In this document: positions 9,781-17,347 of the stretch, piece after piece
Layout of the letters: each line of letters begins with the position of its first letter
Numbering within the stretch: the stretch's first letter is position 1
Source: Elusimicrobia bacterium GWD2_63_28
Lineage (GTDB): Bacteria > Elusimicrobiota > Elusimicrobia > Elusimicrobiales > UBA9959
Reading direction: 5' to 3'
Length of the DNA stretch: 64,000 bases
Assembly (NCBI GenBank): GCA_001799895.1
Contig: MGUI01000004.1
Location: 84,961 to 148,960 of the forward strand
The notes under the pieces: generated by a model
Databases searched by the model: none
What the model was told of the DNA's origin: nothing
What the model saw: only the letters and a program-made list of their open reading frames with translations
Program-made: the position numbers and the translations under genes

Positions 9781-10818
9781 TTACCAGATGAGCTGCACGC
9801 CCAGGCGGTGGGTGGCGCCGAGGGAACCGTAATCGAGGTAGGAATAATCCACGCGGGCGCCCATCATGACGCTGTTCTTGTCGGAAAGGCGGTCGAAGTT
9901 CATGCCGAAGCCGCCGCAGACGCGGGAGCCGGAATCCTTCTGCGTCTTGTAGCCCAGGCGCAGCTGGAACATCTTCATTACGTCCACCTCCAGGCCGGTG
10001 GCGGACTGGTAGTCGCGGTCGGAATACTTGACCATGTCGGAGGCGACGGTGAACACCATCACGTCGTTGACGGTGTGGAAATCCTTGGCGATGCCGAAGC
10101 GCAGCGAGGAGGGCAGCTTGCTCGACGCCTCCAGGAACTTCTGGCTCCCCCCGTAGTTGAGCGCGGAGGCGCCGACGTGGAAATGGCGCGGCAGGATGAG
10201 CGTCAGCCCGGCGTCAAAGGCGTAGGCGGCCGAGGACTCGCCGGCCAGCTTCTCGCTTATCTTCTTGACGCTGGCGCCGGCGGCCAGGCGGTAGGACTTG
10301 GGCCGGTAGTCGGCCACCAGCGGGATCTTGGTCCACGGCGGGGTGATCAGCATGGGGTCCAGCTTGCCGGCGTCCTTCTTGAACCGGGGCCACGACTGGG
10401 CCACGGAGAAGACCGTGAGCTGATGGCTGGTGGAGGTCTTGCCGACGGGCATGTCGTTCTCGTCGTAAGCGTCTATGTCGCCGCTGGAGAGGGAAGAGTA
10501 GGCGGCCGCCACGGTGGCGAAGGGAAAGCGCCAGGCCAGCGCCAGGTATTCCTGCGTGATGCCGTCGATATACTGGTTATGGGAGCCGGAGAAGGAGGAG
10601 TAGCTCAGCAGGCCGAGGCCGGCGGGGTTGTAGAGGATGGAGTCGGGCCCGACCATGGCGGTGTAGGCCTCGCCCATGCCGGAGGGCACGGCGGCCACGG
10701 GGATCTTGAGGAAATTGGCGGCGGTGGTGCCGGGATCTTCGGCGCGGGCGGGCGCAAGAAGGCCGGCGGCCAGCAGGGCCGCGGCGGCTATAGCTATGGT
10801 GTAGGCCCGCGTTCTCAT
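9781..10818 (-). CDS. PorV/PorQ-like outer-membrane beta-barrel protein (copy 1)
   Basis: 345 residues. A signal peptide (about 1-27) is followed by the family opening TTAANFLKIPVAAVPSGMG, with FYNPAG-like LYNPAGLGLL soon after, and then alternating beta strands ending in a terminal aromatic (LIW) as outer-membrane barrels do. PorV-type proteins receive or shuttle cargo in type IX secretion. A second paralogue lies at 41215-42261. An ATG at 10818 is taken as start; a GTG three codons upstream is also open. No ribosome binding site is present, and a strong hairpin lies just before the start. The promoter shares a 13-bp box with the clostripain gene upstream. Confidence 0.85.
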   Translation of the reverse strand: MRTRAYTIAIAAAALLAAGLLAPARAEDPGTTAANFLKIPVAAVPSGMGEAYTAMVGPDSILYNPAGLGLLSYSSFSGSHNQYIDGITQEYLALAWRFPFATVAAAYSSLSSGDIDAYDENDMPVGKTSTSHQLTVFSVAQSWPRFKKDAGKLDPMLITPPWTKIPLVADYRPKSYRLAAGASVKKISEKLAGESSAAYAFDAGLTLILPRHFHVGASALNYGGSQKFLEASSKLPSSLRFGIAKDFHTVNDVMVFTVASDMVKYSDRDYQSATGLEVDVMKMFQLRLGYKTQKDSGSRVCGGFGMNFDRLSDKNSVMMGARVDYSYLDYGSLGATHRLGVQLIW

Positions 10819-10826
10819 ATGTCGCA

Positions 10827-10862
10827 CGGCGGGAGCGGGCCCTTAAAAAGCCCGCTCCGCCG
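10827..10862 (-). promoter_or_regulatory. Hairpin at the 5' end of the PorV-like mRNA
   Basis: CGGCGGGAGCGGGC (10827-10840) is complementary to GCCCGCTCCGCCG (10850-10862) with one bulged base and a 9-base loop. The predicted transcription start is at about 10863, so the mRNA would begin with this stem, 8 nt before the start codon. There is no U-run, so it does not look like a terminator; a stabilising or translation-controlling role is inferred. Confidence 0.55.
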
Positions 10863-11132: not shown

Positions 11133-12383
11133 TTACTTTATCCACTTCATGAAGTCGTCCCAGTTGGAGTCCTTGGCCCAGGCCAGACCGTCGTAAGCGG
11201 CGGTGTAGTAGCCCGGCAGGTAAATCGCGAGGCCGGAGGCGTTGGCGTACTTGGACCCGGTGACGCGGTTGTGGTAAACGACCGAGCCCTTTATGAACTC
11301 CATCAGCTCCGCGCCCCTGGCCTTCACCGCGGCGTCGGCCGTGGCGTCGTTGACCAGTTTCACGAAGTGGTAGAGGTCCTTGTTGCTGGAGTAGTAGAAG
11401 GCCTGCGCCTTCGTGCGGGCGGCCACGGCGGCGGCCGTGTTGCCGGTCGCCATCACGGCGGCGGTCCACGCGTCCGTCAGGCTGGCCAGCTTTTCGAGGC
11501 TGGCGGTGTTGACGGAGGACTGGGTCGCGCCCTGGTTGATCTGCTGGTAGTGGTCGGTATAGGCGTCCACCATCACCTTGGAGAGCTCGGCCGCGCCCAT
11601 GGCGGGCTTGGCCACGAGGGGTCCGAGGAAGGTGTTGTAGGTGTAGCCGTCGCCGGGCTCGGTCTCTTCCGAGGCCACGATGTACTCAGCGCCGGTGCGG
11701 GCCTCGTAGGCCACTTCCATCATCTGCATCAGGCAGGCGTCCATCGACAGGATGCCGATCTTGCCGGTGGCCTCGAGAGCCTGGGCAAGTTGCTGCGTGG
11801 TGATGTGGTTATGCGTCTCGTCGTCGTAGGAAATGCCTTTGCCCTCGGGCTCGCCGGACTTGTTCCAGCCGGAGCCGTGGTTCCAGACGATCAGCGCGTA
11901 ATTGCGCGCCGGGAATTTTTCCTGGGACCATTTCACGAACTCCACCAGGTTTTCCCACTTGCCCATGTCGGACTTGAGGATTTCCATAAGCACCGGGGAG
12001 GTGATCTTGGAGAGATCCGCGTCCTTCTGGACCAGGTAGCGGCGGGAGCCTTTCCAGTCCCCGTCGTTGGTGGCGTAGCCGTTGATGCGGCCGAGTTCCG
12101 CCACGATGTTCACATCGGGGGTGGAACCGATCATTTCCATCTCGTTGACATCCTTGAGCCCGTAGGACTCGAGGTTGTTCTTGGCGTTCACGTAGACCAT
12201 TACGGTCCAGGACGCGGCGGCTTTCGGGTTGCCGGGCAGCGGGAGAACTTCCGCGTCCGGGCTTGCGTTCTTCAACTGCGAGACTATCTCTGAGACGCTG
12301 CCCTGCTGGTCGAAGGTCACCGACGCGGTAGCGGCGGAAACCATGACGAGGCAGAGAAGCGCACCGATTAACTTGTTTATCAT
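11133..12383 (-). CDS. Secreted clostripain-type cysteine protease (peptidase C11)
   Basis: 416 residues. Signal peptide about 1-20. The C11 fold is recognised by WTVMVYVNAKNNLE at 59-72, the catalytic histidine H169 in WNHGSGW, and the catalytic cysteine C217 in SMDACLMQMMEV. Clostripain-family enzymes cut after basic residues, belong to clan CD like gingipains and caspases, and usually mature by self-cleavage. The protein is short and lacks a visible C-terminal sorting domain. The ATG at 12383 has AGGAGGGG 3 nt upstream. The gene is divergent from the motor operon across 209 bp and carries its own consensus-like promoter and terminator. Confidence 0.88.
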   Translation of the reverse strand: MINKLIGALLCLVMVSAATASVTFDQQGSVSEIVSQLKNASPDAEVLPLPGNPKAAASWTVMVYVNAKNNLESYGLKDVNEMEMIGSTPDVNIVAELGRINGYATNDGDWKGSRRYLVQKDADLSKITSPVLMEILKSDMGKWENLVEFVKWSQEKFPARNYALIVWNHGSGWNKSGEPEGKGISYDDETHNHITTQQLAQALEATGKIGILSMDACLMQMMEVAYEARTGAEYIVASEETEPGDGYTYNTFLGPLVAKPAMGAAELSKVMVDAYTDHYQQINQGATQSSVNTASLEKLASLTDAWTAAVMATGNTAAAVAARTKAQAFYYSSNKDLYHFVKLVNDATADAAVKARGAELMEFIKGSVVYHNRVTGSKYANASGLAIYLPGYYTAAYDGLAWAKDSNWDDFMKWIK

Positions 12384-12592: not shown

Positions 12593-14248
12593 ATGATTAA
12601 AAAATTTCTAATGGTTTCCATAATGGCCTTGCAGGCTTTCGCCGCCGGGCAGCTCGCCGCCCAGACGGCCAGCCGGTCCTCCCTGGAAGCCAAGCTGGCC
12701 CTGGAAAACTCCCTGGAAAAGAGGGTGCGCCTGGTCCTGGCCGAAGCCCTCGGCACCGAGGACGTCATAGTCATCATCTCCGCCGAGATGCAGGAACAGG
12801 AGAAGAAGGCCGCCGAGCTCCTTCCCGGCATACCCCAGAAAGAAAAGATGGGCGAAGCCTCGCTCTCCTCCAGCCTGACGATGGTAAAAAAACTTTCGGC
12901 CAGCATGATCCTGGACAAGTCCGTCAGCGACGAGGACACCAAGCTGGCCCGCAAGCTGGCGGCCGGCCTGCTGGGGCTGCCCCCGGACCGTGAAGACCTT
13001 ATCACCATAGAGAAGATGGATTTCCGCAAGTCCAAGCCGCTGACGATGGCCGACCTTTTCGTACCCCCCAACCTCTGGAGCCTGGTCTGGGTGGTTTTAG
13101 TCGCGCTGCTCGCCCTCTTTGCCATAGCCGTTTTCCTCGCCCCCCTTTCAAAGAGCGCCCGCGCCTTCGTGGAAGCCTTCAGCGCCAGGAACGCCGCCGA
13201 AGCTTCAGCAGGCGGTGCCGGCGAGCGCGCGGACAGGCGCGAGGAAGAGGCCAAAGAGACCGCCTCCAAGGCCGCCGCCGAGACCCCCGCCGCGCAGTCG
13301 GTGGACGGCCGCAAGCCGCCGTTCTGGTTCCTCACCCCCGGCCATCTGCAGAGCCTCACCTTCATCATGAAGGGCCGCTCCGTAGAGGACCTCACGATAC
13401 TCCTCAGCTACGCCCCGGGAGAGCTGGCCTCCAAGCTTTCAGAGTCACTCTACCCCAGGAGCGCCGAGGCGCTGGCCGCCCTGCCCAAGGTGACCCTGAT
13501 GCCCGAGGCGCGCATCCGCGCGCTGGAAGCCGACATCCTGTCCTCCCTGGATTACGTGGTGGGCGGCGAGGAGAAAGCCGTAAACATACTCAGCAGCCTC
13601 GACGAAGCCGTGCAGGAAAAGGCGTTGGCCGCTTTCTCCCAGCTGGACCCCGCGCTGGCCAAGAAGATGAATTCCTCCATAGTGCGCCTCTCCGCCCTGC
13701 AGGATTTGGAGCCCGCCCACGCGCAGGCGCTGGCCCGCAGGGTGCCCATGCGCGTGCTGGCCGCGGCCCTCAAGAGCTCGGCCTACACCGCGGCTTTCAC
13801 CTCCAAACTGGGCGGCGGCATGCAGGAGCGCTTCCAGCAGGAACTCGACCTCACGCGAGACCTGCCCGCCGACGCCTATAAGGCCGAGCGCGCCAAAGTG
13901 GTAGAGGCCATACGGCAATTGCTGAAGGAAGGCTTGATCTCCCTGAAGCCGCAGGGTGCAGCGCCCGTGGCGGCCGTGCCGCCGCCGGCGGCGGCCGCAC
14001 CCGGAACCCACGCCCCCGCCGCAGGCATCCCCGCGCCAGCGCCGGCCAAGCCTGAAGCCAAACCTGAAGCCAAGCATGAGGCCGCCGCCCCCGCGCCGGC
14101 CGCGCCCAAGCCCGCCGGCCTGCCCCCGCTGCCGTCCGCGGGGCTGCCCCCGCCGCCCTCGGGCCTGCCTGGCCTGCCGCCCCCGCCGTCAGCCAAGCCC
14201 GCCCAGCACGCCGACGCCAAGCAGCCCGCGCCGGCCGCCAAACCCTGA
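12593..14248 (+). CDS. FliF-like/FliG-like fusion, predicted rotor protein
   Basis: 551 residues. Signal or anchor segment 1-24; extracytoplasmic part to about 155, ending in a stretch like the FliF C-terminal region (KKLSASMILDKSVSDED, then ARKLAAGLLGLPPDRED and ITIEKMDF); a membrane helix at 161-185; a charged linker; then a FliG-like part from about 246 to 452. The latter follows FliG middle and C-terminal domains: DILSSLDYVVGGEEKAVNIL, EKALAAFSQLDPALAKKM, a VPMRVLAAALKSS helix, and a final VEAIRQLLKEGLI. FliG C-domains contact MotA. Residues 455-551 are Pro/Ala-rich with PPPPS repeats. No EHPQ motif, FliM, FliN or export gene is present. It is first in the operon, and its stop is 19 nt before motA. 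Function in torque generation is inferred. Confidence 0.75.
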   Translation: MIKKFLMVSIMALQAFAAGQLAAQTASRSSLEAKLALENSLEKRVRLVLAEALGTEDVIVIISAEMQEQEKKAAELLPGIPQKEKMGEASLSSSLTMVKKLSASMILDKSVSDEDTKLARKLAAGLLGLPPDREDLITIEKMDFRKSKPLTMADLFVPPNLWSLVWVVLVALLALFAIAVFLAPLSKSARAFVEAFSARNAAEASAGGAGERADRREEEAKETASKAAAETPAAQSVDGRKPPFWFLTPGHLQSLTFIMKGRSVEDLTILLSYAPGELASKLSESLYPRSAEALAALPKVTLMPEARIRALEADILSSLDYVVGGEEKAVNILSSLDEAVQEKALAAFSQLDPALAKKMNSSIVRLSALQDLEPAHAQALARRVPMRVLAAALKSSAYTAAFTSKLGGGMQERFQQELDLTRDLPADAYKAERAKVVEAIRQLLKEGLISLKPQGAAPVAAVPPPAAAAPGTHAPAAGIPAPAPAKPEAKPEAKHEAAAPAPAAPKPAGLPPLPSAGLPPPPSGLPGLPPPPSAKPAQHADAKQPAPAAKP

Positions 14249-14267
14249 TCTTTAGAGGTGAACTGAT

Positions 14268-15044
14268 ATGGACCTGATGACATTTTTAGGTGCCCTGACG
14301 GGCATGGGAGTGATAGTCTTCGTGCTCTCCACCGGCGGCATGCTCAAGTTCCTGCTGAACTGGGAAGCCATCATATTGATCTTCGGCGGCACCGCCGGCT
14401 CCATAATGATAGCCTACCCCTGGGCCTCGCTGCAGTGGCTGAAATCCTCCGTCAAGATGGTGATGTTCCCTCCCAAGCGCCCGCCCATAAACGAACTGGT
14501 ACACGCCATCGTCAGATACGCCGAGATAGGCAAGAAGAACGGCATCGACGCCATCGCCGCCGAACTGCGCACCTCCCCCCACCCGTTCCTGACCGACGCC
14601 TGCCAGATGATGCTCGACGGCGTGGACATACACATCCTGCGCGAGCGCATGGAAAACGACATCAACACCACGCGCCTGCGCCACCAGCAGCAGCAGAATA
14701 TTTTTAATTCGGCCGGCACTTTCGCCCCGATCTTCGGCCTGCTGGGCACGCTCATCGGCGTCGTGCAGGTGCTGCGCAACATCTCGGACCCCTCCAAGAT
14801 GGGCTCGTCGATGGCCATTGCCATGACCGCGTCGTTCTACGGCATCTTCTCGGCCAACTTCATGTTCCTGCCCATCGCCAGCAAGCTGGGCTATTACTCC
14901 GACGAGGACATCCTCAGCCGCGAGATCATAGCCAAGGGCGTGCTCTCGGTCTACGAGGGCGACGTGCCGTGGCTGGTCTCCAAGAAGCTGGAAGGCTACC
15001 TGTCGCTGGCCCTCAGGCGCAAGGCCAAGGCCGTGGCCAAGTAA
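14268..15044 (+). CDS. motA: MotA-family stator subunit
   Basis: 258 residues with the standard four membrane helices (two near the N-terminus, two at about 145-215). The cytoplasmic loop has the charged stretch RYAEIGKKNGIDAIAAEL that in MotA meets FliG, and the two channel prolines are present in FAPIFGLLGTLIGVV and SANFMFLPIASKL. MotA forms the ring around a MotB dimer and turns ion flow into rotation. The start has GAGGTGAACTGAT upstream. It sits between the FliF/FliG-like fusion and two MotB-like genes, so rotor and stator would be made together. The family assignment is secure; a flagellar role is not supported by the surroundings. Confidence 0.93.
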   Translation: MDLMTFLGALTGMGVIVFVLSTGGMLKFLLNWEAIILIFGGTAGSIMIAYPWASLQWLKSSVKMVMFPPKRPPINELVHAIVRYAEIGKKNGIDAIAAELRTSPHPFLTDACQMMLDGVDIHILRERMENDINTTRLRHQQQQNIFNSAGTFAPIFGLLGTLIGVVQVLRNISDPSKMGSSMAIAMTASFYGIFSANFMFLPIASKLGYYSDEDILSREIIAKGVLSVYEGDVPWLVSKKLEGYLSLALRRKAKAVAK

Positions 15045-15070
15045 AGGGAGCCGCAGCCCGGGAACGCCAA

Positions 15071-15742
15071 ATGAAGTTCTTCATAAACCGTTATTCCAGC
15101 CACAAGGTAGAGGACAACCCCCTCTACCTGGTCGTGCTGGCCGACATCATGACCAACCTCATGCTGTTCTTCCTCATCCTCTACGTCTTCACGATACGCC
15201 CGGAGCTGAAAGCCGCTGATTTCATGAACGGCTTCGACGAGAACGCCTCCAAAGAACAGAGGGAAAAGAAGGCCGAGGAGATAATAAAAAAATTCACCGA
15301 ACAGGACCTCGCCAAGAAACTGGCGGAGGACCTGCTGAAGGCCGGCATGAAGGACATGGCCGAGGTGCAGATAACGGCCAAGCAGATCAAGATCAATATC
15401 GCCGCGCCGGTGCTGTTCAAGTCCGGCAAGGCCGAGGTCGGCTCCTCGGCCGCCAGGCTTCTGCGCGAGGTGGCGGGGGCCCTGAACACGCTACCTAACG
15501 ACATCATCATAGAGGGCCATACCGACGCTATCCCGATACGGTCCGGCGACTACGCCACCAACTGGCAGCTTTCCGCCGCCCGCGCCAACGCCGTGGTGGA
15601 CCTGCTGGCCAAGGATTACGGCGTGCCGCAGGAGCGGATGATAGCGGCCGCCTACGGCGAGCACCGGCCGGTGGCCAGCAACGATACCGCGGAAGGCCGC
15701 GCGCTGAACCGCAGGATAGAGATAATAGTGCCGAGAGAATGA
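15071..15742 (+). CDS. motB: MotB-family stator subunit (first copy)
   Basis: 223 residues. One membrane helix near residues 18-38 carries the ion-binding aspartate in VVLADIMTNLMLFFL. A charged linker follows, then an OmpA/MotB peptidoglycan-binding domain with IIEGHTDAIPIRSG, NWQLSAARANAVVDLL and ALNRRIEIIV. MotB anchors the stator to the wall and conducts ions. The ATG at 15071 is 27 nt after motA; a longer frame reading back into motA is not credible. The end overlaps the second MotB-like gene by 4 nt (ATGA). Confidence 0.92.
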   Translation: MKFFINRYSSHKVEDNPLYLVVLADIMTNLMLFFLILYVFTIRPELKAADFMNGFDENASKEQREKKAEEIIKKFTEQDLAKKLAEDLLKAGMKDMAEVQITAKQIKINIAAPVLFKSGKAEVGSSAARLLREVAGALNTLPNDIIIEGHTDAIPIRSGDYATNWQLSAARANAVVDLLAKDYGVPQERMIAAAYGEHRPVASNDTAEGRALNRRIEIIVPRE

Positions 15743-16386
15743 GCAAAAAAGACACTTCCCAGCTCTGGATGGTCCCTTACGCGGACTTGATGACCTGCAT
15801 GGTCATCCTCTTCCTCGCGCTCTACGGCTTCGCCTACAACATGCAGGGCTCGGAGTACGAGAAGGCCCTGGCCCAGATGCAGAAGGAACTCGGCATGAAA
15901 CACGCCGACGAAAAGCTCAAGGAGCTGGAGAGCGCGAAGAAGGTGCAGGAAGACCTGAAAGAACAGATCAAGGAAGGCAGCCTCGGCATGGAAGTCTCCA
16001 CCACCCGCATCAAGCTGACCTTCACCGCGCCGATCCTGTTCGACTCCGGCTCGGCCGTCCTGAAGGCCACCGCCAGACCGGTGTTGGACCCGGTGGTGAA
16101 CAGCCTGCTGAAGATGGAGAACCGCGTCATAGTGGAAGGGCATACCGACGCCGCCCGCATGCTGGGCAAGAAATTCGCCTCCAACCGGGAGCTCTCCATA
16201 CTGCGGGCCTTCTCGGTGATAGAGTACCTGGTGCAGCAGGGCGTAAACCCCTCCCGCATAACCGCTTTCGGGTACGGCGAATTCCGCCCTGCCGCCCCCA
16301 ACGACACCGAAGAAGGCCGCCTGAAGAACCGCAGGATAGAGATGATCATCATGCGCCAGGCGGACAAACAGGAAGGGAAATCATGA
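15739..16386 (+). CDS. MotB-family stator subunit (second, divergent copy)
   Basis: 215 residues with the same plan as its neighbour: a short N-terminus, a membrane helix with the aspartate in VPYADLMTCMVILFLALY, a coiled linker, and an OmpA-type domain (VIVEGHTDAARMLGKKF, NRELSILRAFSVIEYL, LKNRRIEMII). The two MotB-like proteins differ strongly, so this is not a recent duplication. A hetero-dimeric stator or two alternative stators sharing one MotA are both possible. It overlaps its neighbours by 4 nt on each side, so all are expected in fixed proportion. Confidence 0.9.
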   Translation: MSKKDTSQLWMVPYADLMTCMVILFLALYGFAYNMQGSEYEKALAQMQKELGMKHADEKLKELESAKKVQEDLKEQIKEGSLGMEVSTTRIKLTFTAPILFDSGSAVLKATARPVLDPVVNSLLKMENRVIVEGHTDAARMLGKKFASNRELSILRAFSVIEYLVQQGVNPSRITAFGYGEFRPAAPNDTEEGRLKNRRIEMIIMRQADKQEGKS

Positions 16387-17297
16387 GAACATACGCCTTA
16401 GTTTCAGCCCTCTTCTTATTCTGCTCTCCGGCCGACGCGCAGACCGCCGCGCCCGACGACAAAGCTGAGATGAAGGAATACTACGACAAGGCCTTCGGCT
16501 ACTACGTGGCCGGGGACTATCCCAAGGCCATCGAGCACTGGAACATGGTGCTGCGCGACGACCCCAAGCAGACCACCGCCAAGAACATGATAGAGGAGGC
16601 GCGCCGGAAGATGTCCGGCACCGCCGTAAACATGAAAGGCGCTTTCATAAAATTGCTGGAGCGGGGCCGCTATTCGGACGCCCTGATAAAGCTCGAGGAA
16701 ATGCTGGGCACCGACCCTACGAACCCGCACTACCTCAAGGCCCAGCAGCGCCTGCGCGGGATCTCAGCCATAGTTCCCGCGCGCCCAGCCACGTCCAGAG
16801 CCTGGAACGCGGCTTCCGAGGCCATCAATTCCTGGCTGAGCGAGAAGGCAGACCTGCCCTTCGCCTACGACGCGCTGCGCTACGCCTCCGAGCTGGCCCC
16901 TACGGAAAAAGCCTTCGGCAGGCTCATCCTGGCGCTGGAAGAGGAATCCCCCCAGCTCAGGCTCAACGACACCAAGCCGGCCAATACCGCCATCCTGGAC
17001 CACAAGAAGAAGGTGGCGCTGGACCAGATCTACGATTCCAAGTTCTACCTGGCCGTGAAGGAGCTGGAAGGCGTACTCCGGCTGGAGCCCAACGACGTGA
17101 CCGCGCTGAAGCGCGCCGGCTCCGCCTATCTGCAGCTGAAGGAATACCGGGCGGCCCGCCGCGCCTGGCAGAAGGCCCTGCAGATCTCCCCCAAGGATGA
17201 CCAGCTGCCCCGGTACCTGCAGGCCCTCGACAAAGTGGCGCCCCCCGAAGCAGCGCAGCCGAAGAAACCGCAGCGCCTGCCGAAAAAGAAAGGCTGA
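16383..17297 (+). CDS. Periplasmic TPR protein of the motor operon
   Basis: 304 residues. Signal peptide about 1-20 (ending ADAQ). Tetratricopeptide-like helical pairs are visible at about 33-70 (YDKAFGYYVAGDYPKAIEHW), 84-115 (LLERGRYSDALIKLEEML), and 215-285 (YDSKFYLAVKELEGVLRLEP, YLQLKEYRAARRAWQKAL). The C-terminus is Lys/Pro-rich. TPR proteins act as scaffolds; an association with the extracytoplasmic parts of the rotor or stator is inferred only from the ATGA overlap with the preceding gene. A strong terminator follows, closing the operon. Confidence 0.85.
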   Translation: MRTYALVSALFLFCSPADAQTAAPDDKAEMKEYYDKAFGYYVAGDYPKAIEHWNMVLRDDPKQTTAKNMIEEARRKMSGTAVNMKGAFIKLLERGRYSDALIKLEEMLGTDPTNPHYLKAQQRLRGISAIVPARPATSRAWNAASEAINSWLSEKADLPFAYDALRYASELAPTEKAFGRLILALEEESPQLRLNDTKPANTAILDHKKKVALDQIYDSKFYLAVKELEGVLRLEPNDVTALKRAGSAYLQLKEYRAARRAWQKALQISPKDDQLPRYLQALDKVAPPEAAQPKKPQRLPKKKG

Positions 17298-17310: not shown

Positions 17311-17347
17311 AAAAAAAAGAAGCCCGGGAGCCCGGGCTTCTTTTTTT
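17311..17347. terminator. Bidirectional terminator after the motor operon and LUD gene
   Basis: Stem GAAGCCCGGG (17319-17328) with CCCGGGCTTC (17331-17340), flanked by an A-run (17311-17318) and a T-run (17341-17347). It serves the plus-strand motor operon and the minus-strand LUD gene. Confidence 0.9.

Follow-up and report, generated by a model that had tools for sequence, protein, structure and literature searches.

We describe a motor operon in the genome of Elusimicrobia bacterium GWD2_63_28 (phylum Elusimicrobiota) and the protein family to which it belongs. The operon occupies positions 12593 to 17297 of a 64,000-nucleotide stretch of contig MGUI01000004.1 (assembly GCA_001799895.1), hereafter the window, to which coordinates given without a locus label refer. 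Judged by its gene content, this bacterium appears to lack a flagellum but to carry four copies of a flagellar motor core, in which parts of the ring protein FliF and the rotor protein FliG form one chain (FliFG) and are accompanied by MotA and MotB. The FliFG-MotAB set is a variant of the flagellar rotor-stator kind. It is probably an ion-driven motor that acts outside any flagellum and descends from the flagellar motor; that its job is gliding or the movement of adhesins we propose tentatively, with slightly less than even confidence. It seems that an old piece of motor machinery has here been put to a new use, perhaps surface gliding.

FliF and FliG parts joined in a single chain

The first gene of the operon (12593–14248, forward strand, 551 residues) encodes one chain in which RBM3 and the second membrane helix of FliF are joined to the middle (M) and torque (C) domains of FliG. 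The protein comprises a signal or hydrophobic N-terminus (residues 1–24), a periplasmic ring domain resembling FliF RBM3 (24–145), a single membrane helix (about 161–183) followed by a linker, the FliG middle and C-terminal domains (242–451), and a proline/alanine-rich tail (455–551). A preliminary description, made from the letters of the window alone, had proposed such a fusion of a FliF-like C-terminal region and membrane helix with a FliG-like middle and C-terminal region, and both profile and structure comparisons bear it out.

Pfam FliG_C matches residues 349–451 (E 1.2e-11). YscJ_FliF_C matches residues 96–144 of the window copy below its cut-off (E 0.0028), and is matched above cut-off in a paralogue from the same genome (L006, E 1.2e-9). 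An AlphaFold2 model of the single chain, computed with a 46-row alignment, has a mean predicted local distance difference test score (pLDDT) of 75, with the FliF-like and FliG-like domains mostly above 90. Its elements run in the order long N-terminal helix, beta, loop, beta, helix, beta, long membrane helix, disordered linker, all-helical FliG part and disordered proline/alanine tail. When compared with PDB structures by VIA-align, residues 24–145 superimpose on FliF 228–438 (RBM3 and collar) with Z about 12 and a root-mean-square deviation (rmsd) of 2.1–2.4 Å over about 96–100 residues, and the modelled RBM3 fold carries its insertion in the same loop as FliF. Residues 242–451 match FliG M-C with Z 16.3; the rmsd is large, which swinging of the FliG domains would explain, and the C-domain taken alone matches the MotAB-bound FliG of 8ucs with Z 12 and rmsd 1.9. 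Foldseek returned the same structure families for a homologue (L109) of a second subfamily, the main type described below, as for the window fusion.

Profile comparisons agree on the FliG side, since FliG M-C of Thermotoga maritima is matched by the main-type profile at E 2.6e-55 and FliG of this species by the window FliG part alone at E 6e-6. The FliF identity of the periplasmic part is settled by the structure comparison together with hhalign, in which true FliF of the same phylum aligned with the fusions at 97.7% probability (E 2e-12 for a single pair, window residues 28–148). It is not settled by a profile search of the PDB, in which the periplasmic part alone found SpoIIIAG and FliF RBM3 as its best matches at a non-significant E of 0.04–0.2. 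The N-terminal part of YscJ_FliF (RBM1/RBM2; PF01514) has no match in the genome, and the model contains one RBM only. Nor was the FliG N-domain found in the fusion. In flagella this domain ties FliG to FliF, so its absence is expected once the two proteins are fused.

A flagellar-type stator with two MotB proteins

The fusion gene is followed on the same strand by genes for MotA (14268–15044, 258 residues), two MotB-type proteins, and a secreted tetratricopeptide repeat (TPR) protein (16383–17297, 304 residues; Pfam TPR E 5e-13). MotA matches Pfam MotA_ExbB at E 7e-24; its closest PDB structures are flagellar MotA/PomA (E 4e-54), and NCBIfam models of flagellar MotA match it at E 3.5e-54, compared with 0.0028 for TolQ. 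By these matches it is assigned to the flagellar MotA/PomA clade and not to ExbB/TolQ. MotB1 (15071–15742, 223 residues; orthologues share its start, the ATG at 15071) and MotB2 (15739–16386, 215 residues) share 36% identity. MotB1 has one membrane helix, and each protein carries an OmpA-like peptidoglycan-binding domain (Pfam OmpA 2e-19 and 2e-20, MotB_plug 1e-4 and 4.9e-8, for MotB1 and MotB2 respectively) and retains the ion-site Asp, in the motifs LADIMTN and YADLMTC. The identities of these four products had been named correctly in the preliminary description.

Across 19 orthologous loci, the ion-site Asp is lost in one MotB in three and never in both together. The replacements are Cys in MotB1 of L104 and L108 and Ala in MotB2 of L106. 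One-sided loss suggests either that MotB1 and MotB2 form a heterodimer in which a single site works, or that there are two stators with partial redundancy.

A compact and conserved operon

The five genes are closely packed, with 19 bp between the fusion and MotA, 26 bp between MotA and MotB1, and then two 4-nt overlaps. A Rho-independent terminator ends the operon (17312–17347, forward strand); its hairpin, with a T run, folds at -26.2 kcal/mol (z -4.67), and no shuffled sequence was equally stable. The coordinates and the hairpin all agree with the earlier account of a tightly spaced five-gene unit closed by a strong terminator.

The order FliFG-MotA-MotB1-MotB2-TPR was sought in related genomes and is kept in all 19 complete orthologous loci, a 20th ending at a contig edge. 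Fusion identity across the 19 loci is 46–76%. The ratio of non-synonymous to synonymous substitution rates (dN/dS) is 0.14–0.41 for seven genes of the block in three pairwise comparisons. The recurrence of the order and these low ratios show that the operon is not a product of chance.

Four motor sets and no flagellar genes in the genome

There are four FliG_C genes in the genome, all within fusions, on contigs C4 (the window), C10, C2 and C46. MotA on C10 is cut at the contig end, and its second half, with MotB, opens contig C1 (the halves share the residues MLETE); with these joined, the genome holds four FliFG-MotA-MotB sets. One further MotA/ExbB-family gene, on C23, is an ExbB adjoining ExbD, and beyond it no TolQ-like gene was found in the genome.

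The type III export gate FlhA (PF00771) and the FliM/FliN switch (PF01052) have no match in this genome, whereas the flagellated controls, four genomes, were positive. Rod/hook proteins (PF00460) and flagellin (PF00669) were found in none of 61 genomes, including this one, with positive controls. The assembly is 90% complete, and near-complete relatives of the same genus that carry the operon (for example G111, 100%) likewise lack FlhA, FliM/FliN, rod and flagellin. These searches revealed no full flagellar gene set elsewhere in the genome, consistent with the initial proposal that rotor and stator are kept while rod, export and FliM/FliN parts are missing. Of that proposal the non-flagellar rotor and stator stand, and the reduced rotary or gliding device or force transducer suggested there stays a hypothesis; it needs correcting in that the operon is no single reduced flagellum but one of four paralogous sets in a phylum-wide family, which is also present, separately, in a flagellated relative (G216). 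The three other sets had gone unnoticed, as had the divergent neighbours treated below.

Two of the further sets (L006:7504-14937 and L007:8477-19977) are interleaved with histidine kinases, and L007 also with receiver proteins. The arrangement suggests a motor under signal control. At L005:11-10666 a surface-type gene of at least 3,551 residues lies just upstream of genes for a PorV-TPR protein and FliFG, and similar giants hold the same place in other genomes.

Partners pointing to the outer membrane

Two genes diverge from the window operon. One encodes a PorV/PorQ-family outer-membrane barrel (9781–10827, reverse strand; NCBIfam PorV_fam 101.6 bits, cut-off 90) and the other a secreted C11 (clostripain-family) peptidase (11133–12383, reverse strand; Pfam Peptidase_C11 E 2e-53). 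The barrel is divergently upstream at 19 of the 20 orthologous operons. The peptidase stands beside 14 of the 20, and is therefore probably associated with the system and not essential to it.

A single PorV-TPR protein adjoins each of the other three fusions in the genome. The window barrel resembles the barrel half of the L006 PorV-TPR protein (BLASTP 3e-21), and the window TPR protein resembles residues 486–556 in its C-terminal TPR half (BLASTP 2e-8). Because the two window proteins resemble the two halves of PorV-TPR, both are likely parts of the system.

Clusters of the main type run in the order giant surface protein, PorV-TPR, FliFG, coiled-coil proteins, FlbD, MotA, MotB and a lipoprotein-like protein. 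The giant has 1.2–3.6 thousand residues and a PNP/FlgD-Ig-like C-terminal domain, FliFG of this type carries its own C-terminal TPRs, and FlbD is matched at E 2e-22. The same adjacency of FlbD to MotA and MotB is found in flagellar operons outside this phylum, and here it hints at flagellar descent.

Distribution and phylogeny in Elusimicrobiota

FliG_C is present in 120 of 295 genomes of the phylum (93 of the 190 good ones), at 1–8 copies per positive genome, and among the listed genomes nearly all frames are about 480–760 residues long, as in fusions. FlhA occurs in 3 of the 295 genomes, and FliM/FliN scores above cut-off in the same three only. Among the matches listed, FliG_C is rare in small-genome families, with one genome in f2 and none in f15, presumably mostly host-associated lineages.

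A tree of the FliG part and a tree of MotA recover the same three groups: the window type, the main type and a kinase-linked type, to which L006 and L007 belong. The matching subfamilies indicate that rotor and stator were inherited together. Both trees have long branches and leave the deep order unsettled, and outside sequences are too sparse in the MotA tree for its origin to be located. A contig scan with the main-type alignment yielded 69 loci, labelled Elusimicrobia, Elusimicrobiota or Endomicrobia apart from a few named 'bacterium'; it used two peptide patterns only, so other phyla are not excluded. A MotA scan of viral contigs gave no match.

G032 (L041) and G216 (L183/L184) carry flagellar clusters of the ordinary kind, in which FliF and FliG are separate, and G216 also has chemotaxis genes. 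A further flagellated member, G247 (L185), has a FliG frame of only 248 residues without a FliG_C match. Genome G216 has a second FliG_C gene, in a fusion-length frame of 640 residues on a separate contig (C132); the flagellar cluster and the fusion-length gene in one genome therefore represent two distinct machines. Elsewhere, a FliG M-C protein of 346 residues with neither FliF part nor signal (L045:10335-11375, G037) is encoded between ParA-like and ParB-like partition genes; its genome has neither FlhA nor FliM/FliN.

A proposed motor and its alternatives

In the mechanism that we propose, copies of the fusion would form a ring in the inner membrane, and MotA with the MotB1/MotB2 pair would form a stator that peptidoglycan keeps in place. 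Driven by ion flow, MotA would turn against the FliG C-domain, so that the ring turns. The periplasmic face of the ring, acting through the TPR protein, would then move a PorV complex of the outer membrane together with its cargo of surface proteins. The most likely use would be to move adhesins on the cell surface and so to glide or crawl on solids.

Several points weigh against this proposal. We infer the ring, the MotA-FliG contact, rotation, coupling to the outer membrane and the movement of surface proteins; the AlphaFold2 models are of single chains. The link to the outer membrane is deduced from neighbouring genes, and no MCP chemoreceptor was found in the genome. The torque residues are also altered. 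When FliG R281, D288 and D289 and MotA R90 and E98 (E. coli numbering) were compared, the window type proved to have Gly at the Arg281 position, where main-type proteins mostly have Gly or Asn, and in window-type MotA the acidic E98 position is shifted. The FliG acidic pair (D288/D289) is retained in part of the main type, the basic R90 position of MotA is retained as Lys, and the window-type torque helix has a conserved Glu-Arg pair about one turn later (QER motif). From these residues, the MotA-FliG interface may have been rebuilt.

Of the other explanations, one is that the motor energises type IX-like secretion through SprA and PorV, in place of GldLM, and does not move the cell. We consider this unlikely, although every subfamily has PorV-family barrels adjoining its fusions, the C-terminal domain of the giant neighbour is of PNP/FlgD-Ig type and resembles type IX signals, and the genome encodes an SprA-like protein of 1827 residues (L180:2930-8413, G000:C7; TIGR04189 E 4.8e-22). 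A type IX-like secretion route outside Bacteroidota, made of SprA-like proteins of about 1,800 residues, PorV barrels and PNP-ended surface proteins, is possible from these genes. However, SprA-like genes occur in 254 of the 295 genomes, including f2 and f15, whose members hardly ever have FliG_C; such a route, if working, is therefore independent of FliFG. This tips the balance towards motility, weakly, as all SprA matches, including that of the 1827-residue frame, lie below the curated cut-off and the search for GldL (TIGR03513), without a match in this genome, was silent in every control too, so that the absence of GldL is not established.

It is likewise improbable, in our estimation, that the set works as a force transducer or sensor and does not rotate continuously, with the MotAB-FliG contact and the linked kinases registering load or touch at the envelope, or that it serves Tol-Pal-like upkeep of the outer membrane. 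Histidine kinases at two of the four paralogous loci, with receivers at one, would suit a sensor, as would the peptidoglycan-binding OmpA domains of MotB, the altered torque residues, and the lack of a TolQ-like gene beyond the ExbB with ExbD. The window operon, however, has no kinase; its MotA is of flagellar type and both its MotB proteins keep the ion-site Asp, and a peptidoglycan-held, ion-driven stator beside a ring implies work output. Most f2 and f15 genomes, moreover, live without any FliG_C.

That these genes are functionless, decaying remnants of a lost flagellum is very improbable. The few flagellated members of the phylum (G032, G216 and G247), with FliF, FliG and export genes, make a flagellated ancestor plausible, but the dN/dS range holds for all genes tested, the operon is intact in every complete locus, the family has been duplicated into several subfamilies with new gene partners, and it coexists with a true flagellum in G216. 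An anti-phage system of the Zorya kind is scarcely credible: the MotB proteins match ZorB models, as any MotB may, but MotA matches no ZorA model and nothing in the operon matches ZorC, ZorD or ZorE. To our knowledge, FliF and FliG domains are no part of Zorya. With no Zor set besides the ZorB-like MotB, and with purifying selection and intact operons, both the Zorya and the pseudogene readings were rejected.

Relation to known machines

No earlier account of a FliFG/MotAB system was found in the open-access papers searched. The nearest published statement is in a 2025 survey, in which a rotor protein without a filament protein is reported for 11% of the species considered non-motile, with the remark that rotor parts might serve another function (PMC12199754). 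The phylum described here bears on this open question of rotors without filaments, with rotor and stator kept, fused, duplicated and re-partnered in the absence of a flagellum. If its function proves independent of flagella, this would be a new class of machine, and if it is used for motility, a further non-flagellar gliding motor. In its full form the proposal, which we advance with some reserve and hold as nearly an even matter, is of a separate class of nanomachine: a rotary FliFG/MotAB motor, derived from the flagellum, that was present in the ancestor of Elusimicrobiota and gave rise by duplication to several subfamilies, and which would drive PorV-TPR complexes of the outer membrane and giant surface adhesins for gliding, independently of the flagellum, GldLM and AglRQS. 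The system also informs arguments on how motors gain and lose outputs, and its natural minimal FliF-FliG unit, with one ring domain, one helix and the torque domains, should be useful for studies of ring assembly and torque.

With the flagellar motor core the system shares FliF RBM3 and its membrane helix, FliG M-C, a flagellar-type MotA, MotB with a plug-like segment and OmpA domain, and, in main-type clusters, the FlbD-MotA-MotB order. It differs in that FliF RBM1/RBM2 and the FliG N-domain are missing and the remainder is one protein, in the lack of FliM/FliN, export apparatus, rod, hook and filament, and in having two MotB genes together with outer-membrane PorV and TPR partners. The type IX/GldLM gliding motor of Bacteroidota (PorV, SprA, SprB) is an ion motor of the MotAB class, with 5:2 composition, that acts on outer-membrane and surface proteins, as is proposed here, and type IX systems have in common with the present one PorV-family barrels, a candidate SprA-like protein and surface proteins with ends like type IX C-terminal domains. 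GldLM has neither FliF nor FliG, whereas flagellar MotAB and a predicted FliFG ring would take its place here, where GldK/L/M/N are not shown. The AglRQS-Glt gliding machine of Myxococcus also sets a MotAB-class stator on a trans-envelope, non-flagellar machine, but it has no FliG or FliF, and AglR and AglS belong to the generic TolQ/ExbB clade (PMC12505986).

Both proteins have been placed in one chain by engineering, in Vibrio (FliFG) and Salmonella. The Vibrio FliF-FliG construct is reported to form rings still (PMC11481574). Those fusions join the two in flagellated cells, whereas in the natural one no more than RBM3, the membrane helix and FliG M-C remain. RBM ring proteins such as SpoIIIAG share the RBM fold but lack a FliG part and a MotAB partner; SpoIIIAG was the top, non-significant match of the periplasmic profile.

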